This document shows positions 3,001 through 52,968 of a stretch of 61,796 nt of DNA, piece after piece; position 1 is the stretch's first letter, and each line of letters begins with the position of its first letter. Origin of the DNA: Candidatus Omnitrophota bacterium (GTDB lineage: Bacteria; Omnitrophota; Gorgyraeia; Duberdicusellales; 4484-171). The position numbers and the translations under genes are program-made. Where the stretch lies: positions 1 through 61,796 of the forward strand of contig PMCS01000015.1 of the NCBI GenBank assembly GCA_003154195.1. Reading direction: 5' to 3'. The notes under the pieces are model-generated. The model had not been told where the DNA came from. It worked only from the letters and a program-made list of their open reading frames with translations, and searched no databases.

Positions 3001-6000
3001 CATCTTATCTGGGATACTAAAACAGAAGAAGCAGTTGTCACCGGTCTAAATTCACCGATCGGTTCTTATGAAGAAAGCGGCGGCAGTGAAAGAGCGATAA
3101 TGCATAACGCTGAAGCGCTTGGCTTAGCCGACATGTTGAAAAAAGCCGGTTTTAAACGTGAGGTAACGCCCAAACAAATAGGATTGTTGGCTACCGGGAC
3201 CAACCCTGTTACCGGTAATCCGCTATCAGATTCTTCAGACGACAAGCGGATGAAAGAACTTGCCATAAAGGTCTGGGACAGGATTGCCCGGATCGACGCG
3301 GAACATATTATTTTTATGTATAAACTGACAAAGGTCCCTAATGTTATTTTCGGCGGCGGTACGACTTCCGGAGATACCGGAACGCTTAGAGTGCGATTAA
3401 TGAACAAATACCTGAAGCAATACCGCGAGAGATTAGGCATTGAAGAAAAAATCGAGATTATCCTCTCCAGAGGAAAGACCACCGCGGCTATGGGGGCGGC
3501 GCTTAAGGGCCAGGAGATGTATGAAGAGTTGCTAGCGGCGGCGAGCCCGGTCAGCGCGGAAAAAGTTAAAGAGATTGCGGGAATTCTAAAAACCCGAGGC
3601 GAAGTTTTTGATAGCGATGTCGAAACGGCATTAGATAAGTTAGGCAAGGCATACAGGAACACATTTGGCCATAATGGAAATAAGAAGGCGGATATAAGCG
3701 AAGTCAGCGTACCAATATGGCGCCTTCCCGGTATTACTTTGCGCCGCTCCCCCAGAAGCGCGGATGTGCGCATCGTATTCCAAGAATGGGGGTCTAAGCC
3801 GTCAACGATAGGTACTGTGGTGCAGGTTTTCCCTGCCGCAGAAAAAAAAGAAGGGAAAGAAAGAGTCCAGCCGGTGACGATTGTAAGATGGCCCGGTAAT
3901 ACGTTGAGCGCATCTTCAGAAAAAATTAATCTTAACGCCCGAGCCGGAAGCGATGAGGAAAGCGCCGCCGCGCGGGGAGAGACAAAAGAAGTTTCTCCCG
4001 GAATTTTAGCCGGAACAACGGAGTTAGTTCTTGTTGACGCTAATGAAAAGGTCTTGGGCCGTCTCCGTTTTGAGAGCATTGGCAATGGTAAAAATGAGCC
4101 GGTAGTTTTTGGCTTGGAGCATTGGAGCGATTCCGATGCCACCAAGCCGGTAGGCCTTAGCGAAGATAGCGAGACCGCTAAAAAGCATATTGTCCGCGGC
4201 AGTTGGGAATTGTTCAACCTTCAGGACATCGGGTTGGGAAAGATAACGTTGTCTTACGATAGTGAGACCGGAGAATTTTGGATTGACGCGAAACGAAGAT
4301 CTAATGAATATCGTCCGGTGATTAGCGTCAGGGAAGTAGAAAAGTCAAGCAGCCCCGCGTCCAGCCCTGCGAAAGTTGGCATGGGGATTACGAATAGGGA
4401 AGAGCTCAGTAGTGAGCTGATGCTGGCCTTGCCGGGTTCCTGGGTGCAAGGAAGAGGGCACGTCACCGAAGACATATACGCTTTATTTCCTGAGGATAAA
4501 CAGAAAATAATCGATCGGTGGATGGACAGTTTGGAGGCGTTTGCCCGCGCGCATGCCCAAAACGCTGACCATGCCCAGGAGATGATCCAGCGCGGTATTG
4601 CCCTTATCGGGTTAAATGCCCGTAAGGAAATCGTAGAATTTCGTTCCGGTTCCGGTTACCATGTTTATGCCGACACTATAGTGGGCTGGGCAAGAAATCG
4701 GAATAGGTTTTTTGATGCCCTTAGCCATATGGAGAAGATTATCGGATCAGCTGCTGCTGACCAGCGAAGCGCCGACCGTTCAAGCTTGGCAACGATACAA
4801 AAACATATCGATGTCCTGGAGGGGAAAGGCAAAGCGAACTCCAGAGAAGATATCGATGCGGGAATAAAAACCCTGGCCGATCTGGAAGGCGCTACCCCGC
4901 AAGTTTTGCGCATTGCCTACCGGGCCCTGTTTAATTACGGACAAAAGATTTTAAATGTGCGGAATGAATTCGCCGGGGCAATAATAGCCGAAGGGAGCGC
5001 AGACGATAGATATTATTCTGTTATCCTGATGCTTGATCGACAATTAGGTAAAGTTCAAGAAGCGTTTTTCAGTGTAAAGGAAAAATTAAGCAGTTCGGCG
5101 ACCATCAGTTCCAGCCCACTAAGCGCGAAACAGCTAAATGAATGCATTACTGCTTTGGGGTATCTGGGTAATCCTGATGCGCGCAGGCTGGCAAGGAACT
5201 TACTGGCTCTGCGCGATCCTAATAATACGCAAGGAATCAACCAAGGTGATATCGGGTGGGCCACCAAGAGCTTGACCAGTTATCGGAGTAGCCTCATTAG
5301 CACACTCCCAAGCACACTCATAACCCAAAGATCCTATGACGACGAGCTTACTCAAAATAAGATAGTGGTCATCAGTAATGCGCTTACCAATCTTGGAAGA
5401 CTGGGAAATGAATTAACTGCTCGCGCCGCGGCCAACCCGGCGGCGGCCAAGGAACGTGAGACGACGGCGGCGAGCCCGGCCAGGGAATTGAAGGCCCGGC
5501 AGAAATTGCTGGACGATATTAGAGCAGCCGCAAGAGAAGTGCGAGGTCTTAATAGCAAGGCCGCCACCGTCCAACATCAGGATCCCCAAGCCGTAATGAC
5601 CTTCGGTGAAGTGTTATCGGGAAAGGAAGCGGCGCTGAGGAGAAAATTAAGCGCCGCAGGGGTTGCTGATTCGAGTTTTATCGATTCCAAAAAAGAAGCC
5701 GATACCGTCGCAGTCGCTACCGCAATGGCCGGCGACGTTACGGATTTAAGGATACTGATTGATTCTCTTACCACGGAAGCACAGGTAAGGGAAAATTTAA
5801 ATTTACTTGAGGCGACGTTTAGCGCGCTCATACCAGAAACCGATGTGGCAGATATCTTATTGGTAAATGAAAGAGATATCGAGACGCTTCGAACAGAACT
5901 GCTTAGACTGCTTACGGTAGTTGAGGCTAACTACGGCAGAAATGGACAAGGCGAGGCCGCACGTATCACAAGCCAACCGGAAAGAGTGGTCGGGATCGAG

Positions 6001-9000
6001 GCAAAGGATAGCGCAAGCGCCAGCCCGCTGGATCCGAGACAGATAGGAAAATGCATTGACGCTACGCGTTCTTTGCGCAATCCCTGGGCGAGTAGAATAA
6101 TAGCGGGCTTAGAGGATATGCGCGCTACTGGTGATATAGGAAAATTCAGCTTGTCGGATGTCCAGTGGGCCATTAAAGAGTTAGGGGCTACCGGGGGACC
6201 GCTTTCGTCAATGCATACAACCCCGGGAAGTGAAGCCCAGCTGATTACGCTAAGAAGGGAGGAAAGGGATGCAGCGGCCCTTAATAACTTTAGAATATTA
6301 GAAAGGGAATTAAAACGCTCCGGACGCGGTATTGCCGGCAGCCCGCTTAACAATTCTGAAGTAGCGCGGAAAGTGGCTCAAGAGGTAAGTAAGGCGCTTT
6401 ATGGTAGCGATTTAGACCCTCTACACCATTATATCCCTAACGGTAGTGATGCTCTCCAACAAATAATCATGAGGCATTTGCAAGGCGAAACGCTGGAAAA
6501 AGAAGAAAACCGGCGCTTAAGCGATAAAGATTGGCAATTAGACATAAAATTCTTGCCGACTGATGACGGCTCGCTTGTTGTAGGTTATGACCTTAAGCTA
6601 AAAATTACCAGTGGCTGGGTTTCAGTTGTTTGGGGAAATACTAAGGGAATCGCTTTAACGCAAACCGGCACCGCCGCCAGCCCGATAGAAAACCTCCCCG
6701 CGCTCGATTCGCAGATTAAGAGCGCTACTGAGGGGCAGGGTAATATTGGGGCGATGAAGGATGTAGTTTCCCGATTACGCCAAACCCGTCTCTTTGATGT
6801 TTTAGGGACGCAGGGCCGGGAAGAAAACTATGCCGCTTATTTAGGAAGAATCGGAGAAGCGGCCCAATCAAGAGTAAGGGCCCACGCCTATGAAATATCT
6901 CAACAGCGCCACAATGACCAGGGGATAAGCCCGGATGAAGAGACGGCAGCGCGGGCTGACTGGATACAGGCGGAACACGAACTGCTGCAACCGGTTTCTG
7001 GTTATCTGAAGCAGGCGCAAACTGCGTTCGATTCCGCCGCGCAAGATGCCGCGGCATATATTGCGCATGCCATAATTAACCTTGTTTTTCGAAGCACAGG
7101 GGGCGCGGAAGGGAATCTAGATACAACTCACCGTTTAACGGAAGAAATCGCAAGGTCGTTTCGCGACCCGGCCGGAGTTACTTTTAGCCTCCAGCAAAGA
7201 GCACAAGAAAGAGCTGGACGCCGGGATCCAGGTATGACGGTAACATTTTCCTATCGAGATAGGGAAACCGGAAGGGAAATGAATTCTCTCCTGCACGGTT
7301 TCTTCCTAACATCCGAAAGGCTTGATAAAAGCGGTTATACCCTTGGCGACATGCTTACCAGGGTAGAACACACCCGCGCCGCGCGGGAACTGGCCGAATT
7401 CGCCGAAACCCGGCCGCTGATCAATTTGCCTAATCTCGAGGCGAGAATCGAAAAGGCAATCGAAGTTTTCAATGCGTATCAGGCAGAGCCCAGCCCGGCC
7501 GCCGATGGAATAGCGCAAATCATCGGTGGATTGAGCTTGACCATACTTGCCGCGCGCAATAAGCCCCTGTTAGAGCTCCTGCGCCAGTTTCATTACCACT
7601 ACGATGATCGCATAAAGGGAAACCGCATCGTCCTGACCCTATCGGGACATCCTACTACTATTGTCGGCGATAGGCTTATCCCGGCGCTGAGCGAATATTT
7701 AAGAGCAATACCGATAGAGATTAAAAAAACTGTGGCCGCAACCGCGCGTGAATTTCGCCAAAATTACCAAGGGCCGGAAGCTACCGATGATGAACATTGG
7801 CTGGCGGCGGAAGAGTACCTGTTCTCCCGCTTTGGTTCTTTGGCCGGCGGTGCGTCCAGCGCGGTGGAATTCGGCCAGTATTTAGAGAAACTGCTAAGCG
7901 CAGGAAAAACGAGAGTACATTTCAAAGACACCAAATTGGGTTATCTGAAGGTAACAGGTGAGGAGATAGTTGGGGACAGTTGGATGCGTACAGTTAATTC
8001 TGCCCAAGATTTAGACCTTACCGTTTCTTTGGACCTTGGTAGGAAAATGCTAATATTACAGAGGCGCCCTTCCAGTTCAGGCGACGTAAAAAGCGTGATG
8101 AGCGGGGAGTCGTCTCGCACAGAGAGTCCTTCCGGCACCTCCAGCGCGAGTGATGAAGAAATAACCAGCCAATTTACACAGGTAATCCGGAATTATTGGG
8201 AAAAACATACTCAAAAGGGCTTCCCTATGAAAAATGGGATAGAAGATAAAAAGGTATTATGGAAAGTCAATTTTGCGTTACGACAAAAAGGATTTCAGCC
8301 GATAGGGTTATCGGAATTAGATGTTCTCCAAAATGCCCTTGCGGCAGGCGGCATACAAATGCACAAAGTCGACCGCAGCTTATTTAAAGTAAAACGCAGG
8401 TATTATGTCATCTACAGCGTTAAGCCGGTATCTTCTTCTCCCAGCCCGGCTACCGCGGGGAGTCCGGCAGTAACAGCGGATGATCTAAGAGATACTGCCG
8501 ATAGGATTCTTAGAAACATCGGCATGCGTTCTATGCATGTGCATATTACCACGGTAATGGCCGATGTCACCGAGAGGCTTCATGGCGCAGAGGCAACACG
8601 TCAAAACGTCATGGATGCCGTAGCGGCGATAAACCATCGCCTAGGAGAGTTTCCGGGGGCATCGCTATATGAAGTCAGCAACGATGGGGTAATCAGTTTG
8701 CCTTCAGATAATGACCCTGACGGAAGACGCAGCCTTTCCGAAGAGTGGGGACGCATAAAAACACTCAATTATGAGAATATGCCGGTTACGGCTATTATGC
8801 AAAGACTAACCCTAACTCCGGAAGCAGTGTATACCGCCCTCAAGGCCATAAGCGCCAGCAGGGATTATCTATCGATGTTTTTTGTGCAAAATGGCCGTAT
8901 TGTAACAGAAGAAAAAAATCACATGACTGATTCGAGACAGTATCCCGATTTTAATAGAGCAGAGTTCACTCAAGTCGCGAGTTCTAATTTGGGTTTAACG

Positions 9001-9168
9001 ACTACTCCCGGCGGTATCAAAATGAGTAACATCCCGGTGATATCTTCAGCGGCGTCGCAGAAGATCGAATTCGCCGCCATCGGCCCGGATTTCTTCGACC
9101 GTTTGACGTTCCGAATTGTTTCGATGAAACACATCGTGTCGTTGGCGCAGTTTGCGTCATTGCCGTGA
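1..9168 (+). CDS. giant modular exported protein 1 (5' end outside the window)
   Basis: The reading frame is open from base 1, and the first 50 codons match residues of the second giant protein at 37709-37858, so the gene begins before the window. At least 3055 codons are present. In order: a conserved N-terminal module (to about 535) shared with giant 2; a Ser/Arg/Gly-rich linker with a tandem repeat (734-822); a ROK/glucokinase-like domain (about 2380-3530) with DIGGQG, FGND, FDGGGIGTCLVIDG and FGGGT motifs; long alpha-helical regions including two copies of one module (5110-5300 and 6016-6200); further unassigned modules; and a C-terminal tail (about 9010-9165) nearly identical to that of giant 2. 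Modules are separated about a dozen times by [AGS][AS]SP linkers. By analogy with giant 2 it should carry a signal peptide. Most modules are unrecognised, so substrate and function are unknown. Confidence is high for the gene and moderate for the kinase-like fold. Confidence 0.93.
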   Translation, partial: WQKAYQAAAKAFGTTDIKLDTFNKIWIAPDKAEVYEYKNTAVVNQATLKAMLEQDFLALQKGTKDEVRGTKDEKAGQINKVASDVMREVVVPKITEDINSGKNFATLRQIYYSLILAKWFKEKFKESFYKHYINQKKIKGIDTNDPQAKEKIYNLYTQAFKKGIYDYIKKESDPATHKQVRRRYFSGGVISNFEPGRFVVSGLADSLPLNAVQGTNFISAGAELATGAANDNAFALAASPMGQKRPGLRGWNTMYDRVMDNGGPGLRGLNTAYDNNRRYYDGNGNRTSRPGTTPSSRPSSSDSSRRGGRSGSPVSYAKMSEVIKSIADQVTGKGKSENVKYEVDTAKGTAVISWANDHGDEVASLTIEKEDSGKGCTMTVRQKHWVGSRGYFLGGTDNIYRTAKYVFDYMGTIWPGAIIVNDWGVNFIVDPMLHTQIEKDEEVKYLAYGYVGDVGKPDPNHALLFVPAGSQKARDLIANARQSAGNKKKGFVEYDLRPKMAASPTAPVTNRRIAPGFEERIDTFAITMGLFNTGTKYRPINLDGAKNAFRQYAEYAAGDSTTTGVARWEDRHDTYIWELSFEVDDSNPTGILVTAMYHDKSGKTAAKPELATRFWVLDVFANPNPVSPIKLATFSVVYPKARSFVSQEEALRTMLKSAGKDVIRITLSNDNGLPLEIAVPDFRAQKPDLMEQIYAKYVAMLYAQAEALRTGPSQHLYVEARNRKGNRDAGTESKIVSAIEKYFTITGDRLFDKINSGNPVEILKKPDDLVLKSPTTLEEWVAKQYAGKTITRRENPVVIALDIGGQGMKPYISRNGKDVTAEVLKDSGKDSTRDEDVAADKTLAYRLSYPAGNDRSAGKVFGDRVVAYVMELRAAAEKMYGPDSVVSVAIDSAGTPDYAKGRMTSLGSLSAGFVVDKAQEISDAGMFIPELIKLLPNAVVLFGNDMQLGWGNALMHYALASLSAADAEKFKTANILFDGGGIGTCLVIDGKVVIGLDECGHLIWDTKTEEAVVTGLNSPIGSYEESGGSERAIMHNAEALGLADMLKKAGFKREVTPKQIGLLATGTNPVTGNPLSDSSDDKRMKELAIKVWDRIARIDAEHIIFMYKLTKVPNVIFGGGTTSGDTGTLRVRLMNKYLKQYRERLGIEEKIEIILSRGKTTAAMGAALKGQEMYEELLAAASPVSAEKVKEIAGILKTRGEVFDSDVETALDKLGKAYRNTFGHNGNKKADISEVSVPIWRLPGITLRRSPRSADVRIVFQEWGSKPSTIGTVVQVFPAAEKKEGKERVQPVTIVRWPGNTLSASSEKINLNARAGSDEESAAARGETKEVSPGILAGTTELVLVDANEKVLGRLRFESIGNGKNEPVVFGLEHWSDSDATKPVGLSEDSETAKKHIVRGSWELFNLQDIGLGKITLSYDSETGEFWIDAKRRSNEYRPVISVREVEKSSSPASSPAKVGMGITNREELSSELMLALPGSWVQGRGHVTEDIYALFPEDKQKIIDRWMDSLEAFARAHAQNADHAQEMIQRGIALIGLNARKEIVEFRSGSGYHVYADTIVGWARNRNRFFDALSHMEKIIGSAAADQRSADRSSLATIQKHIDVLEGKGKANSREDIDAGIKTLADLEGATPQVLRIAYRALFNYGQKILNVRNEFAGAIIAEGSADDRYYSVILMLDRQLGKVQEAFFSVKEKLSSSATISSSPLSAKQLNECITALGYLGNPDARRLARNLLALRDPNNTQGINQGDIGWATKSLTSYRSSLISTLPSTLITQRSYDDELTQNKIVVISNALTNLGRLGNELTARAAANPAAAKERETTAASPARELKARQKLLDDIRAAAREVRGLNSKAATVQHQDPQAVMTFGEVLSGKEAALRRKLSAAGVADSSFIDSKKEADTVAVATAMAGDVTDLRILIDSLTTEAQVRENLNLLEATFSALIPETDVADILLVNERDIETLRTELLRLLTVVEANYGRNGQGEAARITSQPERVVGIEAKDSASASPLDPRQIGKCIDATRSLRNPWASRIIAGLEDMRATGDIGKFSLSDVQWAIKELGATGGPLSSMHTTPGSEAQLITLRREERDAAALNNFRILERELKRSGRGIAGSPLNNSEVARKVAQEVSKALYGSDLDPLHHYIPNGSDALQQIIMRHLQGETLEKEENRRLSDKDWQLDIKFLPTDDGSLVVGYDLKLKITSGWVSVVWGNTKGIALTQTGTAASPIENLPALDSQIKSATEGQGNIGAMKDVVSRLRQTRLFDVLGTQGREENYAAYLGRIGEAAQSRVRAHAYEISQQRHNDQGISPDEETAARADWIQAEHELLQPVSGYLKQAQTAFDSAAQDAAAYIAHAIINLVFRSTGGAEGNLDTTHRLTEEIARSFRDPAGVTFSLQQRAQERAGRRDPGMTVTFSYRDRETGREMNSLLHGFFLTSERLDKSGYTLGDMLTRVEHTRAARELAEFAETRPLINLPNLEARIEKAIEVFNAYQAEPSPAADGIAQIIGGLSLTILAARNKPLLELLRQFHYHYDDRIKGNRIVLTLSGHPTTIVGDRLIPALSEYLRAIPIEIKKTVAATAREFRQNYQGPEATDDEHWLAAEEYLFSRFGSLAGGASSAVEFGQYLEKLLSAGKTRVHFKDTKLGYLKVTGEEIVGDSWMRTVNSAQDLDLTVSLDLGRKMLILQRRPSSSGDVKSVMSGESSRTESPSGTSSASDEEITSQFTQVIRNYWEKHTQKGFPMKNGIEDKKVLWKVNFALRQKGFQPIGLSELDVLQNALAAGGIQMHKVDRSLFKVKRRYYVIYSVKPVSSSPSPATAGSPAVTADDLRDTADRILRNIGMRSMHVHITTVMADVTERLHGAEATRQNVMDAVAAINHRLGEFPGASLYEVSNDGVISLPSDNDPDGRRSLSEEWGRIKTLNYENMPVTAIMQRLTLTPEAVYTALKAISASRDYLSMFFVQNGRIVTEEKNHMTDSRQYPDFNRAEFTQVASSNLGLTTTPGGIKMSNIPVISSAASQKIEFAAIGPDFFDRLTFRIVSMKHIVSLAQFASLP
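734..822 (+). repeat. 54-nt tandem duplication inside giant gene 1
   Basis: Two copies encode RPGLRGWNTMYD and GPGLRGLNTAYD, 18 residues apart, in the low-complexity linker after the N-terminal module. Confidence 0.6.
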
Positions 9169-9407: not shown

Positions 9408-9555
9408 TCCGCCCGACAGAATTTAATGAGGCTTGGCCGAAATCAAGTTCCGTCAGGACGCCGATTGAGGCCGTAGCCGAATTAGGAAGCGGAAAAATTA
9501 TCCCGAAGCGTTAATGATCATTGGCAAATGATCAATGTTCAATTTAAAATGACCG

Positions 9556-13781: not shown

Positions 13782-14262
13782 AGGATGGGGGAATATTCCA
13801 TTGCCCAATATAATTTTCAGAGGTAGAATAATACCTGATTCGACTATCCCGTTACCCTAAAATAACTATAATTTAGGTGCGGGATGTCCCGAACCTAAAT
13901 TAATTTATTCAAGGAAACGGGACTACCGCCTCACTAAACGCGCTTCGCGCGTAATGAAACTAAGTCCCGCCGTTTACGGCGGGCCAGGTTTCATTAGTTT
14001 GGCAAAGTCTCATTAAAATTAAGAAAAAATGTCAATTTTGAATTACATAACACGCCATCGCTAATCAGAACAGCCGGGGAAGCAACACCCGGCTGTATTT
14101 ATGAAGCGGGGCAAGTCCAGTGTCCCCGGAATTCCCCCCGGCATTAAAACCTTCGACTGACCGCTGGATGCGTTGCGTAGAGATGGTAAAAATGATTTGC
14201 CTTTGATAATTTTTGTAAAAATTGTCAAAGGCAAGTCTTAGTAATAAAAAAGGTTGGAACTG
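13782..14262. other. gene-free region with palindromes
   Basis: No gene seen. It holds a hairpin at 13871-13900 (ATTTAGGT/ACCTAAAT around CGGGA/TCCCG), the 45-nt palindrome at 13952-13996, a CAGCCGGG/CCCGGCTG hairpin at 14071-14095, a GTGTCCCCGGAATTC box at 14120-14134 and a CAAGTCTTAGTAATAAAAA box (14232-14250) shared with 16299-16318 and 36469-36488. Confidence 0.7.
13952..13996. repeat. 45-nt palindromic element, intergenic copy
   Basis: Same length and architecture as the copy inside the GT39-like gene (11791-11835) and as the sequence-divergent palindrome at 36386-36430. The outer stem is TAATGAAAC/GTTTCATTA and the inner stem CCCGCCG/CGGCGGG with a TTTA loop. Confidence 0.85.
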
Positions 14263-23227: not shown

Positions 23228-23304
23228 TAAAGAAATATTCTCACCAGTGCGTAGCCTCCCCGAAGGGGACAGAGGGCACGGAGAAATACCGAAAGATGAA
23301 GTCC

Positions 23305-23367
23305 GCCAATTTGGTAAACAAATTGGCGAGACCCCGCCATTTGCCGTTTTATCGCAAATGGCGGGGA
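23305..23367. repeat. two-hairpin element, intergenic copy
   Basis: GCCAATTTG/CAAATTGGC followed by CCCCGCCATTTG/CAAATGGCGGGG. It shares its first hairpin and flanks (GATGAAGTCC before) with the in-frame copies in giant gene 2 at 37911-37964 and 43455-43508; the second hairpin differs. Confidence 0.75.
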
Positions 23368-36988: not shown

Positions 36989-37231
36989 ACTCTGGCGGAT
37001 ACATAAAACCTAACATTATGGGGTTAAAATCCTACCCAAACTAGCGGTTTTGCTACTCCCACCCACACGGCCGTTGTTGGGCAAAAACCGGCGGTATTAT
37101 CAAAAAATTCCCCAAAAAACCTTCGGAATCCCCCCTTGTTTTTCCCTAAAAAATATGTTATATCTTCCTACTATAATATAATCGTTTCTGCCAGCAAAAA
37201 ACTATATAAAACAATATTTTTTAACGGAGGA
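36989..37231. other. leader region of giant gene 2
   Basis: Holds CTACCCAAACTAGCGGTTTTG (37031-37051), matching the box before the promoters at 9676 and 46852, and its near inverse TTGGGCAAAAACCGGCGGTA (37077-37096). A TATAAT at 37172-37177 may be the -10 of giant gene 2; no -35 is evident. Confidence 0.45.
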
Positions 37232-40200
37232 ATGATGCTTTCGTTTCTCGCTCAACCCAAACGCAAACTCTTCTCTAAGTTAACTCTTATACTGGTACTA
37301 TTCTCTTTTTTAGGTACCAGCCTGGGCACCAACTACGCCCACGCCGCTTTAGCCCTCCCTGAGCCTACCCAGTTGCTAGGCCTGTCTCCAAGCTACTCCT
37401 TTCCGATATTAAAGGGATTAAAACTCAACCCGGCTAACCCGCTACAGATAGAATTCATTATCGATAGCGCTAACCAGGATACGGTAAGTAAAGAAGAAGC
37501 ATCAAAACTGATAAGATACTTCTTAGCCGGATTGACTATCCCGGAAGACGATCTCTGGGTAAACCTATCCGTATATGAAAAAGACCATATAATCAATGAA
37601 TCTGCCGCTGCTACCGACGTAGGCCGGGATATGTTAGCCCAGGACTATGTCTTAAAGCAATTAGTCTCCTCTTTGACCTATCCGGAGAGTGAAGTGGGTA
37701 AAAGCTACTGGCAGAAAGCCTATCAAGCCGCGGCCAAGGCCTTTGGTACTACTGATATCAAACTAGATACCTTCAATAAGATATGGATCGCTCCGGATAA
37801 AGCCGAAGTCTATGAATATAAGAATACCGCCGTAGTCAACCAGGCTACTCTTAAGGCAATGCTCGAACAAGACTTTCTCGCATTGCAGAAAGGAACGAAG
37901 GACGAAGTCCGCCAATTTGTAAAACAAATTGGCGAGACCTCGCCATCCGCAGGATGGCGGGAACGAGGGATGAAGGACGAAAAAGCAGGACAAATCAACA
38001 AGGTGGCTTCGGATGTAATGCGTGAAGTCGTAGTACCTAAAATAACCGAAGATATCAATTCCGGCAAGAACTTTGCCACTTTAAGACAGATATACTACTC
38101 TCTGATCTTAGCTAAATGGTTTAAAGAGAAGTTTAAAGAATCCTTCTATAAACACTATATCAACCAGAAGAAGATCAAAGGCATCGATATCCATGACCCT
38201 ACGGCTAAAGAGCAGATCTATAACCTCTATACCCAGGCCTTTAAGAAGGGTATCTATGACTATATAAAAAAAGAAGTTGTACCGGTTGAGCCGGTTATGC
38301 CGGTTGCAGGGTTAAAATCTTCTAACGGACTCAACCGGCCTAACAGTTTTAAAACCGTTAGACGTAGGTACTTCTCCGGAGGAATAAACTTTCTGATCGG
38401 AGTTGTCTCCTCAGTCGTACCCTCGGCCACGTTTGATGCGACCCAGAGAATGGGTAAGTTTAACGCCGTGGGGACGCTTTTGACCAATGAGGTAGCTAAT
38501 GATAACTCGATAGGGGTGGCGGGAAGCCCGGCGGGGATGGAAACCGATGGACGAGGAATGAGGGATGAAGGAAGAGGGGAAGATACCGTAGGACGTGAGG
38601 ACGTGGGACGTGGGACGAAAGGAGCAAGCGCCAGTCCGGCTTCCGCCAGCCCCGTTAAGGATTTTGACGTTTTCTTAGGAGTTATCTTAAACGATGAAAG
38701 CCTCCAGCACGCGCATCCCGCGATTTACCAAAAAATTAAAGCCCGGGGCTCGGCAAACAAAGTAAGAGGAGATATCGTCAAGGAGTTGGATCTTATCAGA
38801 ACCCAATTAGGTGATGCGCAGGGGCCGGTGGATTTAGAGGCATTGCACCAATATTTGCTCGCTAAGGCCCAGGATTTTCGCGACAAAGGTGATTATAAAT
38901 CCGAGGCGATAGCCTATTTCCATGCGTTAAGAGTGTTGGCCGGGCCGATAAGCTCGTTGACTGAATTGATGGTGCACGACATTGCGTCCAAAGACCATTA
39001 CTCTTCTGTCCAGAAGTCATTGTTAGACGCGATATCCCGGTCGTACCGGGCTATCCCCCAGCATGAGATAGATTATTTTAATACTTTATGGAAATCCCGG
39101 AATACATCAATCCGGGAGCTATGGCAGTGGGTACAGAGAAACACCATTGTCGGGTGTTTAGATTATGTGGTTGACAGCGGCGATGGTTTCTGGGCAGGCC
39201 GCAGCCGCTGGGATAAGATTGACCAATCCTGTAAGTTTTTTGAAGCTTTGGAATCTCACCGGACGGGAGAAAGCAATGACCATTGGTATGATTATCTAAA
39301 CAGCAGAAGAGCGGCGGGAGAGGAGCCGTTGGATAGAGAACTATTAGAAGCAATGCAGGAAGGATACGACCGGATAGAGCAGGGAGGAAAAGACGAGACA
39401 ATAAAAAAAATAATATTCTTATCCAACCTTACTATGGATTATCCCAAGATTCTTTTAGGTAATGATGACGCCAGCGTAAGGCCGGTGCTGTGGCCTTTTT
39501 ACAAAATGCTTCCGATTGAAAAGGAAGATACGGAGCTGCTGCTTGTTCTTGCCGAAGAACACCGTGATTACCGGACCCTGGGGCTTGGCGATAGCCGCGG
39601 CCCCGAGGCATTTGTTAAAAAGCTTTCAGTTGAACCTCCCCAGCAGGAAGAAGAACGGCTGCCCGAGCCGGCTTACGACGCGCCGGCGGCAGCTAAATTA
39701 AAAGAAGCATTCAACGGAAACGGCGCGGATGTCGCAGGAAAATTAGAGGCGTTATACCAAAGCGGAGATTTAGCCAGAGCGATATCTTATCTTGCCCTGC
39801 TGGACCGGCCCAAGACAAAAGGGGTCACTATTTTACAGCATTGCGTACAAGTCGTCCGGTGGATGGCCGCAGTCGATGAGGGCGATTTTGCCGGATTCTC
39901 TGCTTTGAGAAAAGGTAAACCTTACATCCCTGAAAGTCACTTCCGCAGTTTAAGCCGGGCGTTGCGCCAGGCGCGGGATTATATCGCCGGATTATACGAC
40001 GAGCAAACGGCGAATCGGCTTATCTACCTGGCCGCGTTTATGCATGATATCGGGGATATCTTCAATTACGGCGACCACACCACCAGGGGAGCGGCGATGA
40101 TCGAGCCTGTGCTGGCGATCCTGGGCATTAATGACCGGCGCATTGCCAACTGGTTCCGGTTTATCATCAGGTACCATTCTGAATTCGGCGGTATGAATAT

Positions 40201-43200
40201 CGCGGAAAAGACCAACGCCCCGATTTTAGAGGCGCTGAAACAGGAATTTGATTTGCAAAGCGCGGGAGAAGCGGCCGAGGCGGATATGCTTTTGAAACTT
40301 ACGGTAGCAATCAATTCCGCGGACGTTATGTCTTATCAGGACGGAGTATTTTTTACCGCAGACGACGCCGAGCTAATGGCGGGTTACTTAAGCCTGGAGA
40401 AACTGGTAAGGTTCGACGCCGCAGAGTTCCGCCGGTTAAGATACGCCTGCAACGAGCGTGGAGTAGTAAACGAATTCAGGCTTGATGTTTTAGGCAAGAC
40501 AATGCGATTACTGCAGAAGCGTTACCGGGGATTCGCGCCGTTTCTGGGGTCAGCTGAAATGGGCCATTCTAAGGAAATATTTGCTAATCTTTCCGAGACC
40601 GACGTCGGGAGATTATTGAGGCTATCCTATATTATATCCCGCGCGCCGGGCCAAAACGCCGAAGCTCGCACTTTTGATTTTACCGCTTCCCGCCGGCTGG
40701 CCCCGTTAAGTTTCCAGCCGCTTCATGAAAGGCTGGCCGAGGTAGATTTTGAAAGATTAGCCGAGCTTCCCATTCATGATGCCGTCCGCTATCTGACCGA
40801 AATGGGATTGATTACCTATCTGAGCGGCGATGAAGGGACGGTGTATTACAATAATAAGTATTTAACCCATATTATACGTTATTTCAGCGCCGCGGCGATA
40901 AATACCCTGGCTTATTACGCTTCGCGCGGCGTCGGCACGCTTACCGACGACCATCTGGGCAACTTTTTAGTTATGTATAATTTGTCCGAAATCCACCGCT
41001 TAAGGATGTTTGCAAAGCACTGGCCGGTAATCCGTTTGTTATATGCCCTTTTAAACGGCGTGGTCAGAGGCGAAAAGATGTTTAATTTAAAGAGCATGGC
41101 GCCTAAGTTTGAAAACAGGAACGAAGAGCCTAAGGACCTGCTCTTAAGTATTGCCCGGGATTTAATCACGGAAGACCAGCAATACAGCCGCCAGCATCAG
41201 GAGGTTTATGACGCGCTTCGCGAGATCGACCAAGCCGGCCATATGCAGATTCTGATCGATTGGTTGAGCCGCGCCAATACGGTACGCTTGAACTATACCG
41301 CCCGCTGGGTTGATTTTGGGGCGGCGGGGTTTGTAAAATTTATTTATACCCTGGCTCTTTTATGGAGTAGAAGAACCGCCCAGGAAAAAGACAGGCCATA
41401 TTTATTTGCCGGAAAGTATATCGGAAAGCTGGAGAGAGAAAAAGTCGCGATTGTGGCTAAGACAGTGCCGGATATCGCAGGGCAATTCCAGAAACTTTGC
41501 GCGGGAGATATTTCCGAAGCAAAGTTCATCAGCGAAACTTTTGGTTTAACTGCCGAGGGATATTACGAAGATGCCGAAAAGACGATTGTTACTTTAACCC
41601 AGGCGGCGGCCGCGGCGAGCCCGATGGAAATGAAAACCGAAAGACGAGGGATGAAGGATGAAGGACGAAAAGATGATATTGCCGCGGAACGCGGGACGAA
41701 GGCGGGGAGCCCGGCAATTCCCGGGAACGCGCCAAGAATTCCCGTGACGTTTATTGCTTCTTCCGATCCTTATACGGTGAAGGGTGAAATTATAGTGCCC
41801 GAGGACGCGAAAAATGGTAAAGCAAAAATCTGCATACTGTCGATGGGCATGTTCATAGCATTATGGTCGAATATCTGGATTGAAAACGGCCGGATGATGC
41901 AAATAACCAATAGTGCTCAAACTAATGGGCTTACGCATAGCATTGCTTATGATGCCGTCAGGGATGTGTTGACAGTCGAAGCGCGTAACCTCAGCAATAC
42001 CCGTCAATTAGAGGCGTATCTTATCTCCGCCGCCAGCCCGGCCGAAGGCAAGACGAAAGTCGGATTGGTTTCAAGCGCGGTACCTCAAAGGATTCGGCGT
42101 CATGTAATAAAAAAGAAGGACGGCGTCGATCCTGAATATCTCGCAGGAATAAATGCCAAAGAAAAAAAGACGATAGTCATATACGGCGGGCTGGGTTCGT
42201 TAGGCGAGAGATTTCTGGGGCCCGGCATCCGCGAGCTGAACGATACATTTAACGTAGATTTCATCGCGGTGGACACCAAAGATCCTTCCCGGGAAGCCGA
42301 CAGGCGTTTTATAAAAAAACGTAAACAAGTGCTTAAAGATGCGGGTTTGCCGGTTAGCGCTTATTTTTCTATCGGAAATTTTGGTAAAGCGCTGGATAAG
42401 GCACGGGGAACGATTCGCATAAAAGGAAGAGATATTAAAGTCGACGGAGTTATCACTGCGGTACCTACTAAGTATCACCTCAAGTACGCGCAAACATGGG
42501 TCAGGAGAAACATACCGGTATGGATGGAAAAACCCATTACGATGGTTGACGAAATTCCCGGTTTAAAACGACTGAATACCCAGCATCCCGGAAAAATATT
42601 CGCGGTAGATTTTTTTATGGACAGCGATGCGTTGATGTCGGTCTTAAAAGATAAAGATATTTTAGGCGGCATAGGAAAAATTAAGCGTATCGACGGCCGC
42701 TGCGTTGAGACATGGGGGGTTGAGCGCGAACCCAGGAAGTGGCTCCTTGATCCCGCGATAAGCGGAGGCGGATTGATGATAGACACTGCGGTCCACCCCC
42801 TCGCGATGATCGAGTCGGTCTTAACAACAAAAGGGATGACGCTTGGGCAAGCGGAGGTTGAGGATTGCCGGCTTGCCCGGTATGTAAATAACCCTGCCGA
42901 TAAGATTGTTCCCAGCCAAACCGAGACGTATGGTTGGATTAAAGGGCGAGTAGGCGATATTGAATTTTATGTAGACAGCGGTAAAGGTGTAGGCCGGGTA
43001 TATTATGGAATCACCATAACCGGCGACAAGGGAAGCGTAGAGGTATTTGTAGGAACAGAAACCCTGGATCCTTATATTAAGGTAACGCATAAAGACAGCA
43101 GCGTCGATATGTATCGTTTTTCAAAAGGAAGCCTGGGGTATAAGAGGACATTTTTGGATTTCATGTTATTCTTGCACGGTTCTAAGAAACACGACGGAGT

Positions 43201-46200
43201 TGGGCTGGATACACGTATGTCGGCGGCCATGCATAGCTTAGAAGTGGTTGGCAAGGCATATAAAAAGTCCGAGGGGATAGGAACATATTTGCTAGGGAAT
43301 GATCCTACGGTACCGACTGAAGTTCAAGGAATGCCGTTTAAAGGGCTTCGTCCCAAAGGTAAGGCACTTTGGGGTAACGGTGAAGTTCTAACTAAATCGA
43401 AAAGTACTGTTGGTTCCAGCCCGGCAAGTGCGGAAAGACCGAGGGATGAAGTCCGCCAATTTACAAAACAAATTGGCGAGACCTCGCCATCCACCGGATG
43501 GCGGGGACGAGGGATGAGGGATGAAGGACGAAATGACGATACTGCCGTGGGCCGTGGAACGTCCGCGGCTTCGCCGCTGGGACGTGGGAAGAGGGAAAAA
43601 GGTAGTGCCAGCCCCTTGTGGTGGAATCTGCGCAAGCTAAAAAGCTATAAACTGGAGACACGAATTGAGGCAGCCAACCAGTTAGCCCTTCGTGGCGGCC
43701 GAGATATAATGGATATATTATTTGCAGCCTATCGCGGTGAACGGTCCTCTGGTGTCAGGAGTGCGATCATTAGAGCCCTTAAGCACAACAACAATTACGC
43801 AGGCCCTATGCTTGTCGACGCTCTCAGGGGCAGCGATCCGGATATCCGCGTTTCTGCCGTTATGGTTCTTGGGGAAATGAGAGACTCATCGTATGAAGAC
43901 GCCGTCTATGCCGCTTTTTCTAATACCAATCCCGTAGCAGTATATAACGCGCTTGTTAATATTAATGGGAAAATGCGAAGATCTGTCGAAGATATCTACG
44001 CTGAATTAAAAAGACAAGACGGTGATTTTAGTTTATTGCCCGAAGCCATTCGATTAGCGGCAGCAGGGTATGGATTCAAAGTTGAGGTAAAACGGGAAGT
44101 TGTGATTGACAAGGTAGGCCATGAAGGTGTAGTCGATGAGCAGATTAAGTCTTTTCCTACTGATAATAATGATAATGTTCAGGAGTATTTAGATCAAGGT
44201 TATCGTATAACAGATATTTCGGCGGATGGTTCATACATAGGATCGGGCAGCGCCGTTGGGTATTATTTTTATTTGGAAAAAAGAGGTTTGGTGTATAATT
44301 CGCCAACCGAGAAGGTTACTCGCACGCTTGTCCCTGTGAAAATTGGTTCCAGCCCGACATCAACCGCTATGAAGACAGCAGGGTCGCCGGTATCTTTGCC
44401 GATCGGCCTTTTAGATAAGACGATTGAGATTTTTAGCCAAGCCGATACCGAAAAATTAGATACGATAAAAGATTCTTTTAACTCTTTTGCCGACGGCCTT
44501 CTGCGTAGTTATAAACCTGAACCGGATGAGGCTGACTTGGCCAGAATAAAGCAGTTAACCGAGCATACCGTAGAATTTTTAAAAGCGATGAAATCAAGGG
44601 ACACCCGGATAAGAGGAGTAAAAGAAAAGTTGCTTCCAATCATCGGGTTGTTGCACGATATCGGTAAGGTAATTACTTATGTCGGCCATGAAGAGTCAGG
44701 GGTAAAGGTTTTAACCGACCATAATATTATCGGCCAATTGGTAGACAGTGGTTACATAAGTAAAGACGAAGGAGCGTTGGTTGAGACCGCGGTGCGCTAC
44801 CATACCTTTGTCGGCTTAAACTGGATTGGTGAAAAAGGTTATGTGACGTGGAAGGAATTTTTTGAAGACAGCGCGGTAGCAGCGTGGCGCGCCGGTAACG
44901 ATTTATCCACTTTACTTGAGCTCATCGCAAAAATGGGCATATTTGATCTTCTGGCCTATAAAAATTCCCTGCAGTCGTCGAGGGAAAAAGGATACATTGA
45001 TTTGGCCGAAACAGTAGCCGCTGCGGTTTCCCGCGGCGGAAACTTGGAAGAAAATCTTGCCGCTTTAGACCGGGAAAAATCCCCCGAGCGCGTTGAGCAC
45101 CTGATTTCCTGGAGAGATAATAATATGGATAGTTCTCGGCGCGTCGGTTATATGGGCGAATGGGGAAAAGCGGCAGAAGCCGTCCAGGCCCAGGAAGCGT
45201 TTATGAAAATTTTAGAAACCGTTACCGGCCACAGAGATATCCAGTCATTTATCAATGAAGCTTTAGGGAAAGAGGCAAATATTGAGCGATTCGGCGTTAT
45301 ATTTCCGGCACTGGCCTGGTCCGATGCTGCCGCCGCCGGGAGCGAAGAAGATTTCGCGAAGACTTTATATTTCTGGCAGGAAATAACGGCAGGACATTCC
45401 GTTAACCCCGGCGCGGTTAAATTCCTGGCTCTCTTGTTGCTGGCCGGTCGTATTTTTCCCGGGCATTCAAGCATTGTCACGCTCGGCAAGGACAATGTAG
45501 AAATAGCCAAATTGATAGGCAAACCGGGATTTTCCCGCTATCTTTATGCTTTAAACCAGGCAATGGCTTCTTTGACGGGGATAAAAGTATCGGAAGATAA
45601 GATTACTTTGCTGGGGGAAGGCGGCGCGCCACTCGGCTCATTTATGCAATTCGACCAAAGCAAAGGAACTATAACATTTTTTGCCGAACCGGCCGACGCT
45701 TCCAGCCCCGCTTTTCTGGATGATAACGCTAAAGCAGCGGGACGGAAAGCTTCGCTTTCCAGCCCGCTGGAACAGGGAAAGGTTGTCGATATTCCCAGCC
45801 GTCAAAACAGTAATTGGGTCTGGTTTCCCATGACTGAGCCGGAAAGGGCAGATTTTAAAGCAGGGAGAAAAGTTTTGCATATTTACGGTGAAAACAGCAA
45901 TGAGGCCCTGGCAGTAGTGCGTTATTTTTTGCCCGGAGAGCCGGACCCCCGGGCGCAAAAAATAAAAGTTGAGGCGCCAAAGGCCTCCGTAACCGGTCAA
46001 AATCCGTGGGAGGTAAATATCCAAAAAACGGGTTTAGTGGCCAAGATAATAGTTTCCTATGACCCTTCCGGGGAAAGAATACTGGTTAAGGGAAAAAATT
46101 TTGATTTGCGAGGAATCCCTAAACCATTCCATATGATGTTAGCCACACCAAGGGAGGGAGATGCCGGCCTGGTAGCAAAAGGGTTGGCAGGTGTCAGGTT

Positions 46201-46675
46201 GGCGTCACGGGACGCCGGCACTTATTCTCATGACTACGCGGCAGGGAAGATAATCACTCCTCGCTCCGGATATAGGGTACCGGTGGAGAAAGGTAGGCCT
46301 ATTTTATCCCAGGTTAAGAGCATCGCGGCTGCGCTTAACAATGTCCCTGAGGAGCAGATTGAAGTTGACTTCATATCGCGCGATAAAGAGAACAGTATCA
46401 GGGGGTTTCGCGTAACGATTTTACCACCGGCCGGGGGAATCGCGGGGAACGGAGCTGCGGGAAGCGGAACGAATGCTAATCCCCGTTCCTCATCTTCCGT
46501 TAATGCAGATGCGCCCGGCGGTATCAAAATGTCCAACATCCCGGTGATATCTTCGGCGGCGTCGCAGAAGATTGAATTCGCGGCGATCGGCCCGGACTTT
46601 TTCGATAGACTAACATTTCGGATCGTTTCGATGAGACACATTGCATCGTTGGCGCAGTTTGCGTCGATACCATAA
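37232..46675 (+). CDS. giant modular exported protein 2
   Basis: 3147 residues from ATG 37232 (or the adjacent ATG 37235), directly after ACGGAGG. A signal peptide ends NYAHA at about residue 38. Then: conserved N-terminal module (to about residue 390); unassigned region; HD domain 1 (about 860-1010; TILQHC, FMHDIGD, RYHSEFGG); helical region; Gfo/Idh/MocA-like oxidoreductase (about 1647-2030; IVIYGGLGSLGE, EKPI, GGGLMIDTAVHP); HEAT-like repeats (about 2128-2255); HD domain 2 (about 2385-2600; GLLHDIGK, RYHTF); unassigned C-terminal modules; and the tail GGIKMSNIPVISS...LAQFASIP shared with giant 1. About eleven [AGS][AS]SP linkers separate modules. Two linkers hold 54-bp palindromic insertions. 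Cytosolic-type enzyme folds behind a signal peptide are unexpected; function unknown. Confidence 0.95.
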   Translation: MMLSFLAQPKRKLFSKLTLILVLFSFLGTSLGTNYAHAALALPEPTQLLGLSPSYSFPILKGLKLNPANPLQIEFIIDSANQDTVSKEEASKLIRYFLAGLTIPEDDLWVNLSVYEKDHIINESAAATDVGRDMLAQDYVLKQLVSSLTYPESEVGKSYWQKAYQAAAKAFGTTDIKLDTFNKIWIAPDKAEVYEYKNTAVVNQATLKAMLEQDFLALQKGTKDEVRQFVKQIGETSPSAGWRERGMKDEKAGQINKVASDVMREVVVPKITEDINSGKNFATLRQIYYSLILAKWFKEKFKESFYKHYINQKKIKGIDIHDPTAKEQIYNLYTQAFKKGIYDYIKKEVVPVEPVMPVAGLKSSNGLNRPNSFKTVRRRYFSGGINFLIGVVSSVVPSATFDATQRMGKFNAVGTLLTNEVANDNSIGVAGSPAGMETDGRGMRDEGRGEDTVGREDVGRGTKGASASPASASPVKDFDVFLGVILNDESLQHAHPAIYQKIKARGSANKVRGDIVKELDLIRTQLGDAQGPVDLEALHQYLLAKAQDFRDKGDYKSEAIAYFHALRVLAGPISSLTELMVHDIASKDHYSSVQKSLLDAISRSYRAIPQHEIDYFNTLWKSRNTSIRELWQWVQRNTIVGCLDYVVDSGDGFWAGRSRWDKIDQSCKFFEALESHRTGESNDHWYDYLNSRRAAGEEPLDRELLEAMQEGYDRIEQGGKDETIKKIIFLSNLTMDYPKILLGNDDASVRPVLWPFYKMLPIEKEDTELLLVLAEEHRDYRTLGLGDSRGPEAFVKKLSVEPPQQEEERLPEPAYDAPAAAKLKEAFNGNGADVAGKLEALYQSGDLARAISYLALLDRPKTKGVTILQHCVQVVRWMAAVDEGDFAGFSALRKGKPYIPESHFRSLSRALRQARDYIAGLYDEQTANRLIYLAAFMHDIGDIFNYGDHTTRGAAMIEPVLAILGINDRRIANWFRFIIRYHSEFGGMNIAEKTNAPILEALKQEFDLQSAGEAAEADMLLKLTVAINSADVMSYQDGVFFTADDAELMAGYLSLEKLVRFDAAEFRRLRYACNERGVVNEFRLDVLGKTMRLLQKRYRGFAPFLGSAEMGHSKEIFANLSETDVGRLLRLSYIISRAPGQNAEARTFDFTASRRLAPLSFQPLHERLAEVDFERLAELPIHDAVRYLTEMGLITYLSGDEGTVYYNNKYLTHIIRYFSAAAINTLAYYASRGVGTLTDDHLGNFLVMYNLSEIHRLRMFAKHWPVIRLLYALLNGVVRGEKMFNLKSMAPKFENRNEEPKDLLLSIARDLITEDQQYSRQHQEVYDALREIDQAGHMQILIDWLSRANTVRLNYTARWVDFGAAGFVKFIYTLALLWSRRTAQEKDRPYLFAGKYIGKLEREKVAIVAKTVPDIAGQFQKLCAGDISEAKFISETFGLTAEGYYEDAEKTIVTLTQAAAAASPMEMKTERRGMKDEGRKDDIAAERGTKAGSPAIPGNAPRIPVTFIASSDPYTVKGEIIVPEDAKNGKAKICILSMGMFIALWSNIWIENGRMMQITNSAQTNGLTHSIAYDAVRDVLTVEARNLSNTRQLEAYLISAASPAEGKTKVGLVSSAVPQRIRRHVIKKKDGVDPEYLAGINAKEKKTIVIYGGLGSLGERFLGPGIRELNDTFNVDFIAVDTKDPSREADRRFIKKRKQVLKDAGLPVSAYFSIGNFGKALDKARGTIRIKGRDIKVDGVITAVPTKYHLKYAQTWVRRNIPVWMEKPITMVDEIPGLKRLNTQHPGKIFAVDFFMDSDALMSVLKDKDILGGIGKIKRIDGRCVETWGVEREPRKWLLDPAISGGGLMIDTAVHPLAMIESVLTTKGMTLGQAEVEDCRLARYVNNPADKIVPSQTETYGWIKGRVGDIEFYVDSGKGVGRVYYGITITGDKGSVEVFVGTETLDPYIKVTHKDSSVDMYRFSKGSLGYKRTFLDFMLFLHGSKKHDGVGLDTRMSAAMHSLEVVGKAYKKSEGIGTYLLGNDPTVPTEVQGMPFKGLRPKGKALWGNGEVLTKSKSTVGSSPASAERPRDEVRQFTKQIGETSPSTGWRGRGMRDEGRNDDTAVGRGTSAASPLGRGKREKGSASPLWWNLRKLKSYKLETRIEAANQLALRGGRDIMDILFAAYRGERSSGVRSAIIRALKHNNNYAGPMLVDALRGSDPDIRVSAVMVLGEMRDSSYEDAVYAAFSNTNPVAVYNALVNINGKMRRSVEDIYAELKRQDGDFSLLPEAIRLAAAGYGFKVEVKREVVIDKVGHEGVVDEQIKSFPTDNNDNVQEYLDQGYRITDISADGSYIGSGSAVGYYFYLEKRGLVYNSPTEKVTRTLVPVKIGSSPTSTAMKTAGSPVSLPIGLLDKTIEIFSQADTEKLDTIKDSFNSFADGLLRSYKPEPDEADLARIKQLTEHTVEFLKAMKSRDTRIRGVKEKLLPIIGLLHDIGKVITYVGHEESGVKVLTDHNIIGQLVDSGYISKDEGALVETAVRYHTFVGLNWIGEKGYVTWKEFFEDSAVAAWRAGNDLSTLLELIAKMGIFDLLAYKNSLQSSREKGYIDLAETVAAAVSRGGNLEENLAALDREKSPERVEHLISWRDNNMDSSRRVGYMGEWGKAAEAVQAQEAFMKILETVTGHRDIQSFINEALGKEANIERFGVIFPALAWSDAAAAGSEEDFAKTLYFWQEITAGHSVNPGAVKFLALLLLAGRIFPGHSSIVTLGKDNVEIAKLIGKPGFSRYLYALNQAMASLTGIKVSEDKITLLGEGGAPLGSFMQFDQSKGTITFFAEPADASSPAFLDDNAKAAGRKASLSSPLEQGKVVDIPSRQNSNWVWFPMTEPERADFKAGRKVLHIYGENSNEALAVVRYFLPGEPDPRAQKIKVEAPKASVTGQNPWEVNIQKTGLVAKIIVSYDPSGERILVKGKNFDLRGIPKPFHMMLATPREGDAGLVAKGLAGVRLASRDAGTYSHDYAAGKIITPRSGYRVPVEKGRPILSQVKSIAAALNNVPEEQIEVDFISRDKENSIRGFRVTILPPAGGIAGNGAAGSGTNANPRSSSSVNADAPGGIKMSNIPVISSAASQKIEFAAIGPDFFDRLTFRIVSMRHIASLAQFASIP
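37911..37964. repeat. 54-bp two-hairpin element inserted in frame
   Basis: GCCAATTTG/CAAATTGGC and CGCCATCC/GGATGGCG. Giant gene 1 lacks exactly this stretch at the matching position (202-203), while both flanks agree. It adds 18 residues (QFVKQIGETSPSAGWRER). Confidence 0.9.
43455..43508. repeat. 54-bp two-hairpin element, second in-frame copy
   Basis: Same length and design as 37911-37964, in the linker between the Gfo/Idh/MocA-like and HEAT-like modules. Encodes QFTKQIGETSPSTGWRGR. Flanked by GAGGGATGAAGTCC and GAGGGATGAGGGATGAAGG. Confidence 0.9.
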
Positions 46676-52109: not shown

Positions 52110-52539
52110 CAAGCCGGGCTTAACAGTCGCAGGCTTGTTCCTGGTAGCCCTTTGCGTTTTAGGTATGGCAAAAGCGCCTAAAACCGTGGATGACGCCCGA
52201 GGCGTGGTTGAGAAGTCTTTATCCCAAGTTGAAACGGCTTATGAAGCGCGTAACCTTCAAGAGATGCTTGATTGCTTTGATTCCGGATACCCGGCATTAC
52301 TTTCTCTCCAGGACTATCTCCAGAAACAATTTGCTGCTTACAAAACACTGGGTATTAATTTTATTATCGATTCATACCTCATTGCCCCGGATAAAACTGA
52401 AGTCAAGCTCCATTGGCTTAAAAAAACGACCGATTCTTCCGGGACGATTTTAAAGACAAAAGGCTCGGCAGAATTTATTTTTTCGACTAAATCCGGCAGG
52501 TATTTACTTTCGCAGATAAACGGCGATAACCCGCTTTAG
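52069..52539 (+). CDS. small exported NTF2-like protein
   Basis: Open from ATG 52069, which overlaps the previous gene by 41 bases; a later start (GTG/TTG around 52125-52135) is also possible, and no ribosome site decides. A hydrophobic segment (LTVAGLFLVALCVLGMAKA) acts as signal. The mature part (VEKSLSQVETAYEARNLQEM, LDCFDSGYPALLSLQDYLQK, ending FIFSTKSGRYLLSQING) resembles the NTF2-like region of the preceding protein, so it is a domain-level paralog. Role unknown, cluster member. Confidence 0.75.
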   Translation: MRQITRHQIPTRFNKPGLTVAGLFLVALCVLGMAKAPKTVDDARGVVEKSLSQVETAYEARNLQEMLDCFDSGYPALLSLQDYLQKQFAAYKTLGINFIIDSYLIAPDKTEVKLHWLKKTTDSSGTILKTKGSAEFIFSTKSGRYLLSQINGDNPL

Positions 52540-52968
52540 TGAGACTTAGCCGAGTAAGCATGTACGCATGTGCAGCGAGGCCGTAAGCGAACTATCTAAA
52601 ATCGTGGAAGCGTACTCGCGACCTCAGATTTTAGACAATGAGACACAAATTGCCACTAATTGGAAGATACGAATTGCCACGAATAATACCGGGAGGCAAC
52701 TAGAATTCGTGGAAATTCGTGCGTAAAATTCGTGGTCATTCGTGACTGAAACATGAAATGCTAAATCCAGCCGCTTCATAAAAAAGAGGTATTTAAAACC
52801 GAAATTTCTTGAAAACAAGAGGTTTCGGTTTTTTTGCGGAAAGAACAACAAGAGTATTTCAGGTAGCATAGAAAAAGACAGAAAAATTATCATGACGGGT
52901 TAAGGCTGCCTTGTATGCAAAAAGATAACCGGTTCCTATAAGGTTGATAAAAACCAGGAGGTGGGCTT
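52540..52968. other. gene-free region with repeats and terminator
   Basis: TCTAAAATC/GATTTTAGA hairpin (52595-52635), degenerate ATTCGTGGAAATTCGTG-type repeats (52640-52750), the terminator at 52795-52837, then an AT-rich leader. No gene. Confidence 0.65.
52795..52837 (+). terminator. rho-independent terminator
   Basis: AAAACCGAAA pairs with GTTTCGGTTT, followed by a run of T residues and GCGG. It separates the first three envelope genes from the large surface protein. Confidence 0.75.

Follow-up and report, generated by a model that had tools for sequence, protein, structure and literature searches.

Cyanobacterial small dispersed repeats (SDRs), reportedly described by Elhai et al. in 2008, are said to be hairpin elements of very small size that show compensatory changes, commonly reside within 7-bp tandem repeats and are nested, possibly with RNA intermediates, their single units reportedly measuring 21–27 nt. 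The heptanucleotide tandem repeats of cyanobacteria (STRR) form 7-bp arrays which host small elements, and selfish palindromes in conserved proteins have been described mainly in Rickettsiales. REPINs or BIMEs (REP doublets) are composed of an inverted pair of imperfect hairpins which apparently moves as one unit (PMC3116915). In the sections of the sources cited here, Rickettsia palindromic elements (RPEs) are palindromes placed in frame in conserved proteins, in RNA genes and also between genes (PMC2229807, PMC3733652), with a length of 105–146 bp (PMC2229807), and the GTAG- and CGTC-tagged REPs are short stem-loop repeats, some within ORFs and some inside other palindromes (PMC3733652).

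We have analysed a stretch of 61,796 nucleotides (the window; contig PMCS01000015.1 of a Candidatus Omnitrophota bacterium) in which a giant gene carries a two-hairpin element of 54 bp. As in the SDRs, this element is found between heptameric tandem units (in two genomes), is nested in other small repeats and has compensatory stem changes, but it is set apart from them, as they are described, by its length (53–67 bp), its two inverted hairpins, its Omnitrophota host and its copies in frame in conserved enzymes and in tRNA gene fragments. The 7-bp arrays hosting it recall the STRR, with the difference that in Omnitrophota they also extend, in frame, into the linkers of proteins (giants, PurQ). 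With REPINs it shares two inverted REP-like imperfect hairpins forming one unit, but it has neither GTAG nor another fixed tag, the flanks being different in genomes G125, G006, G049, G185 and G285; moreover, no RAYT is linked to it in this genome, its copies are far fewer, and it occupies coding and tRNA locations. The likeness to RPEs lies in the in-frame copies in conserved proteins, in one frame (purQ and three giant sites), together with RNA-gene and intergenic copies, whereas RPEs measure 105–146 bp and the cited sections describe for them neither a heptamer-repeat host nor nesting (PMC2229807, PMC3733652); by description the element is also set apart from RPEs by a host outside Rickettsiales. 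Tagged REPs are likewise short stem-loops in ORFs and in palindromes, but the element lacks GTAG and CGTC tags and ends in YCCGCC/GGCGGR. As to the hallmarks of MITEs, no target duplication was seen at nested or tRNA sites and no parent IS was found. We have thus not filed the element under SDRs, REPINs or RPEs, given the missing tag and linked RAYT, the different size from SDRs and the host outside Rickettsiales, the comparison with SDRs and RPEs being one of descriptions. A limited literature search, which does not prove absence, found no paper on such repeats in Omnitrophota. From sequence comparison, the best reading (probability of about 0.7) is that of a non-autonomous, mobile-like palindromic family of Omnitrophota, akin to REPINs, SDRs and RPEs and tolerated in frame in flexible linkers, a loss from the other giant gene of the window being part of this reading.

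The element in giant 2 and its linker

Giant 2 occupies positions 37136–46675 of the forward strand (3179 aa when read from TTG, a later ATG ahead of a signal-like segment being the more likely start) and matches the domains HD, HEAT_2 and GFO_IDH_MocA_C; giant 1 (1–9168, forward strand, 3055 aa), which is cut by the contig start, gave no Pfam match. Homology between the two is limited to an N-terminal module (about 510 nt, 87–92%) and about 150 nt at the 3′ end, so that what the pair has in common is a module with about 22 paralogous versions, and the two are not copies of a single gene. Their alignment contains a single gap of 54 bp with clean homology on either side, the extra bases being present in giant 2 and missing from giant 1. 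The placement of this gap is ambiguous by 2 bp (CG), with 37909–37962, 37910–37963 and 37911–37964 scoring about equally, and therefore the start of the element is not fixable from this alignment alone; the biological ends, TCCGCC...GGCGGG at 37908–37961 of the forward strand, were set by other filled and empty sites, namely the nested and tRNA copies.

The element so delimited by alignment, fold and end comparison is flanked on the left by 7-bp repeat units (GAYGARG) ending in GAAG (37892–37907, forward strand) and on the right by further 7-bp units (AACGAGG GATGAAG GACGAA; 37962–37981, forward strand). Its strand folds into two hairpins, with stems at 37910–37919/37925–37934 and 37939–37948/37952–37961 (forward strand), the energy being -36.2 kcal/mol (z = -5.4; none of 200 shuffled sequences folding as well), and the pattern of hairpin 1 has 2 matches in the window against a chance expectation of 0.00. 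In frame, it is translated as (E)VRQFVKQIGETSPSAGWR, adding 18 residues. A second in-frame copy of 54 bp lies in giant 2 between GAYGARG units (43452–43505, forward strand), and an intergenic copy of 64 bp with a longer hairpin 2 is found at 23302–23365 (forward strand), with GATGAAG to its left and GATGATG to its right. The preliminary description had reported the 54 extra bases with matching sides, the two hairpins with 18 in-frame residues and two related copies placed at 43455–43508 and 23305–23367; each of these proved real, the frame being open, and the coordinates of the two copies are now those given above. Further small palindromes were observed beside the element in coding sequence, at 43555–43590 of the window and at 20039–20065 of contig C5 (CGTCCGCGGCTTCGCCGCTGGGACG; CCTGCCTGACGGCAAGGCAGG).

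The giant linkers which carry the element are heptamer tracts running in frame, and in the 22 paralogous modules the linker holds several unrelated short repeats, which indicates a permissive site. In an AlphaFold model of the giant 2 module fragment the pLDDT falls below 50 at residues 185–210, between helices which are otherwise mostly confident, and the linker is accordingly modelled as disordered or flexible. Among the N-terminal-module linkers of the 22 giant paralogs (L036–L065) we have also noted at least five unrelated in-frame repeats (GTKDE, VEPVEPV..NRLNRLN, KTKKPKNQKTFTT, VGAGSPRP.. and KGQGAGVKGQ), some of the in-frame repeats of these linkers being palindromic at the DNA level.

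Copies, structure and distribution

The initial DNA search for the element returned 39 matches, and 29 strong copies were then detected in the genome (2.48 Mb) with a covariance model (R1), for which 24 sequences, 22 of this genome and 2 of relatives, had served as input. Twelve of these copies are nested in a larger hairpin repeat, 4 are in frame in genes, 11 are intergenic in purine-rich 7-bp tracts and 2 lie elsewhere; GAAG stands immediately to the left in 26 of the 29. Each of the 11 intergenic copies within tracts shares its strand with the nearest gene, a stop or start being mostly at 60 nt or less, and the nested copies are found in both orientations relative to genes. The coding copies reside in giant 2 (twice), in a giant on contig C5 and in purQ of a purL-purQ-purF-purM cluster, the identity of PurQ being confirmed by NCBIfam. 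All four measure 54 bp and are read in one common frame as the near-identical peptide EVRQFxKQIGETSPSxGWR, whereas 11 of the 12 tract or other intergenic copies are 64–67 bp long, not a multiple of 3, and most have stops in the frame of the coding copies (Fisher p 0.003 versus coding). The keeping of the frame is explained either by selection against frame-breaking copies or by spread from copies already compatible; either suffices, and thus a frame-sensing mechanism is not needed.

Compensated double changes are observed at 9 of the 19 predicted base pairs. Relatives have a common plan, YCCGCC-stem1-GGCGAGAYCTCGCC-stem2-GGCGGR, in which conservation is confined to the ends and the junction and the stems change freely; the element is thus made of two inverted imperfect hairpins joined by GGCGAGAYCTCGCC. 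The covariance model matches in 47 of 292 genomes of the same class, many of the weaker matches sharing the plan rather than the sequence, and the exact motif is found in 30 of 384 genomes of the phylum, the reversed-pattern control giving 0. Probably all of these genomes are metagenome assemblies. Among the named PurQ relatives in GTDB contigs, the best match belongs to Candidatus Omnitrophota, and exact-pattern scans of GTDB contigs and viral contigs gave no match. Rfam searches returned nothing credible, either at the gathering threshold for the window and 19 loci or at E≤5 for the outer repeat in which copies are nested.

The location between genome-specific 7-bp tandem units is evident in this genome and in one relative, such permissive tracts being found in protein linkers as well. 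In G125 the element stands between repeat units such as CTGGTCA on the left and CTAGTCA on the right, and the left and right heptamers agree at 5.9 of 7 positions within a locus versus 4.25 between loci, a value reached in 4 of 10,000 permutations. In this genome (G000), whose heptamer unit is GAYGARG, the flanks agree at 5.07 of 7 positions when compared at offset 0, and the agreement peaks again at offset 7. Between genomes the left flank varies (GAAG, TCA/TTA, CGTC, GGTG, AGCT, GGTT), which indicates that there is no fixed target motif. A 7-bp target-site duplication as the general origin of the flanking repeats was rejected, because no such duplication is seen at the tRNA and nested sites and because several arrays exceed 2 units.

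Filled and empty sites and the direction of change

Several independent kinds of site show that gain and loss of the element involve the exact unit and leave no target duplication. An outer hairpin repeat of about 60 bp (examples at 1501–1560 of locus L118 and at 9423–9440, 13999–14016 and 52536–52553 of the window) is found with and without the 54-bp core: the genome has 12 composites with it and at least 8 outer copies lacking exactly 54 bp between GAAG and GGC. The 18-base arm of this repeat, TCGGCGAAGTCTCATTAA, occurs 100 times with up to 2 mismatches, the reversed control giving 0. A single insertion, after which the composite was copied, may account for all 12 nested copies. The roughly 100 outer hairpin repeats (TTAATGAGACTTCGCCGA...GAGGCGGTAGTCGAATTA) are followed by strings of variable hairpins, forming an intergenic mosaic with no Rfam match.

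In G006, G049, G185 and G285 the element lies inside a truncated tRNA copy directly upstream of the adjoining intact, empty tRNA (L067 1446–1571; L068 1489–1559; L197 near 1490–1570; L203 1489–1566; locus coordinates). The tRNA sequence resumes at the next nucleotide without duplication, the junctions being between nucleotides 55 and 56 (Ala) and between 12 and 13 (Val, Glu and Gln); in the three latter copies the tRNA match past the element continues for only 5–10 nt. Of the 51 loci checked, some of which are redundant, 22 have a tRNA at 150 bp or less from the element, and many tRNA-Ser 3′ ends have TCCGCC in common with the edge of the element. In many Omnitrophota genomes the element overlaps a tRNA 3′ end, mostly that of tRNA-Ser (...TCCGCCA), by 4–7 nt (L193, L205, L206, L211, L212, L220, L221, L341, L348 and L354). 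In purQ the element is contained within one loop; the aligned orthologs all lack it, most having a short loop at this place and several no insert whatever. PurQ orthologs of G002, G025 and G018, from three other genera (L223, L224, L225), carry other in-frame repeat-like inserts in the same loop, those of G025 and G018 being in-frame 7-bp tandem repeats (ACAGAAG, AAATCAG). An AlphaFold model of PurQ reached a mean pLDDT of 53 with 11 sequences and was not used.

For the pair of giant genes the direction of change has been judged from the footprint at the empty site instead of from a paralog tree, as the tree of the N-terminal module, computed to polarise the gap, has weak supports and the modules are mosaic: to the left of the linker giant 1 is nearest to L038, and to the right it is nearly identical to both L041 and L038. 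The site of giant 1 (183–219, forward strand) reads GAAG-TC-CGAGGG, whereas 16 of 19 comparable tract sites in the fetched sequence read GAAG-GA-CGAGGG, TC being found at giant 1 only; in a genome-wide pattern search, giant 1 alone has GAYGAAGTCCG in a repeat tract without the element. As TC(CG) are the element's own first bases, the TC at positions 200–201 matching its left edge, the simplest explanation is a loss of the element from giant 1, either through recombination with a CGAGGG or through a deletion reaching one. Its empty site is probably a secondary loss, or a recombinant keeping the left edge of the element, a case built on two bases. That the element entered giant 2 after the split, with giant 1 keeping the ancestral empty site, is improbable. 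The exact 54-bp gap between homologous sides would agree with such an insertion, and the paralogs L037 and L039 are likewise without the element, but these have fewer repeat units and do not represent the pre-insertion site. In addition, the TC of giant 1 stands where the tract has GA, and a clean insertion directly after GAAG in its sequence predicts TCCGAGGG on the right, where giant 2 has AACGAGGG; under insertion, an element-free ortholog of giant 2 would read GAAGGACGAGGG.

The preliminary description had taken the pair as direct evidence of movement into giant 2, a view which is not supported, as giant 1 keeps the first two bases of the element and its empty state is probably a deletion, which counts against insertion there. 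Its wider claim of a mobile element entering coding sequence with the frame kept fared better, excepting the direction of change in this pair: exact 54-bp differences between filled and empty sites are clearly seen at other loci, and the element is dispersed and mobile-like, with its coding copies in frame.

Routes of spread and alternative readings

Two inverted imperfect hairpins and the absence of target duplication would also be expected of a true REPIN, an IS200/IS605-type (Y1/RAYT) non-autonomous derivative moved by a resident tyrosine transposase, and the conserved left tetranucleotide GAAG of this genome, its five Y1_Tnp genes and, in G125, a genome rich in copies, a Y1_Tnp gene separated from one of them by about 130 bp (G125:C37:1570-2158, L392) point the same way. 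We regard this origin as rather doubtful: the fetched flanks of this genome's five Y1 genes are all free of the element, no junction motif was found near the scanned Y1 loci, the tetranucleotide to the left differs from GTAG and changes from genome to genome, and Y1_Tnp occurs in 18 of 20 genomes having the element and in 17 of 20 lacking it. Y1/RAYT was rejected as the resident mobiliser, there being no linkage in this genome and no association over 40 genomes. At L086 a Y1 transposase gene is flanked by repeats of its own (GGGGACAGCTACCATAATTA, upstream of the Y1_Tnp ORF), unrelated to the 54-bp element. A functional RNA element, whose hairpins act in mRNA (stability, attenuation or processing) and are kept by selection, with the coding copies as by-products, is not a likely explanation either. 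The strong covariation, the common strand of the 11 intergenic heptamer-tract copies and their nearest genes, most of these copies having a stop or start no more than 60 nt away, and the many copies in relatives touching tRNA 3′ ends would suit it, but there is no Rfam match, the distribution among relatives is patchy, nested copies take both orientations relative to genes, and the element is also located within another repeat, in truncated copies of tRNAs and in coding sequence. Local co-option of the element may nonetheless occur.

Selection of the 18-residue peptide for a function in the host proteins is very unlikely. Four coding copies in the same frame with nearly the same peptide would be in its favour, but 25 further copies of this DNA are intergenic or nested, paralogs have unrelated repeat peptides in the corresponding linker, the same loop of three PurQ orthologs has other repeat-like inserts, and the giant 2 linker is modelled as disordered. 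As the assembly has 34 contigs and is probably of metagenomic origin, and repeats are prone to misassembly, an artefact may be considered, yet it is hardly credible for an element shorter than a typical short read, with unique contexts such as the purL-purQ-purF-purM cluster and with the same architecture in dozens of independent genomes and control counts of zero.

The reading as a tolerated mobile-like family remains the preferred one. Coding copies would persist because they are 54 bp long, free of stops in one frame and located in flexible linkers, the length and frame being observed, the giant 2 linker modelled and the fitness effect presumed. The element would once have been present in giant 1, a recombination or deletion event at a CG having removed all but its first two bases. 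Mobility is likely to be in trans, as judged from the sequences; by analogy with the proposals for REPINs and cyanobacterial SDRs, copying would most likely follow a hairpin-processing route acting in trans on ssDNA or RNA, and the tRNA fragments suggest an RNA route. More tentatively, and with somewhat less than even confidence, the element could define a new Omnitrophota-wide mobile family of about 54 bp with two hairpins, exact ends and no target duplication, whose sites are between genome-specific heptamers, between nucleotides 12 and 13 of tRNA gene copies, at tRNA-Ser 3′ ends, in the loop of another palindromic repeat and in frame in essential proteins, and whose machinery may use an RNA intermediate.

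Palindromes within proteins are here seen in an uncultured phylum, together with natural pairs of filled and empty sites which fix the ends of the element to the base. The element accounts for part of the repeat-rich linkers in giant Omnitrophota proteins. Its host sites fall into three classes, namely heptamer arrays, tRNA copies and another palindrome, which constrain how it moves, and the tRNA and heptamer sites make testable the long-standing question of how tiny elements without genes spread.
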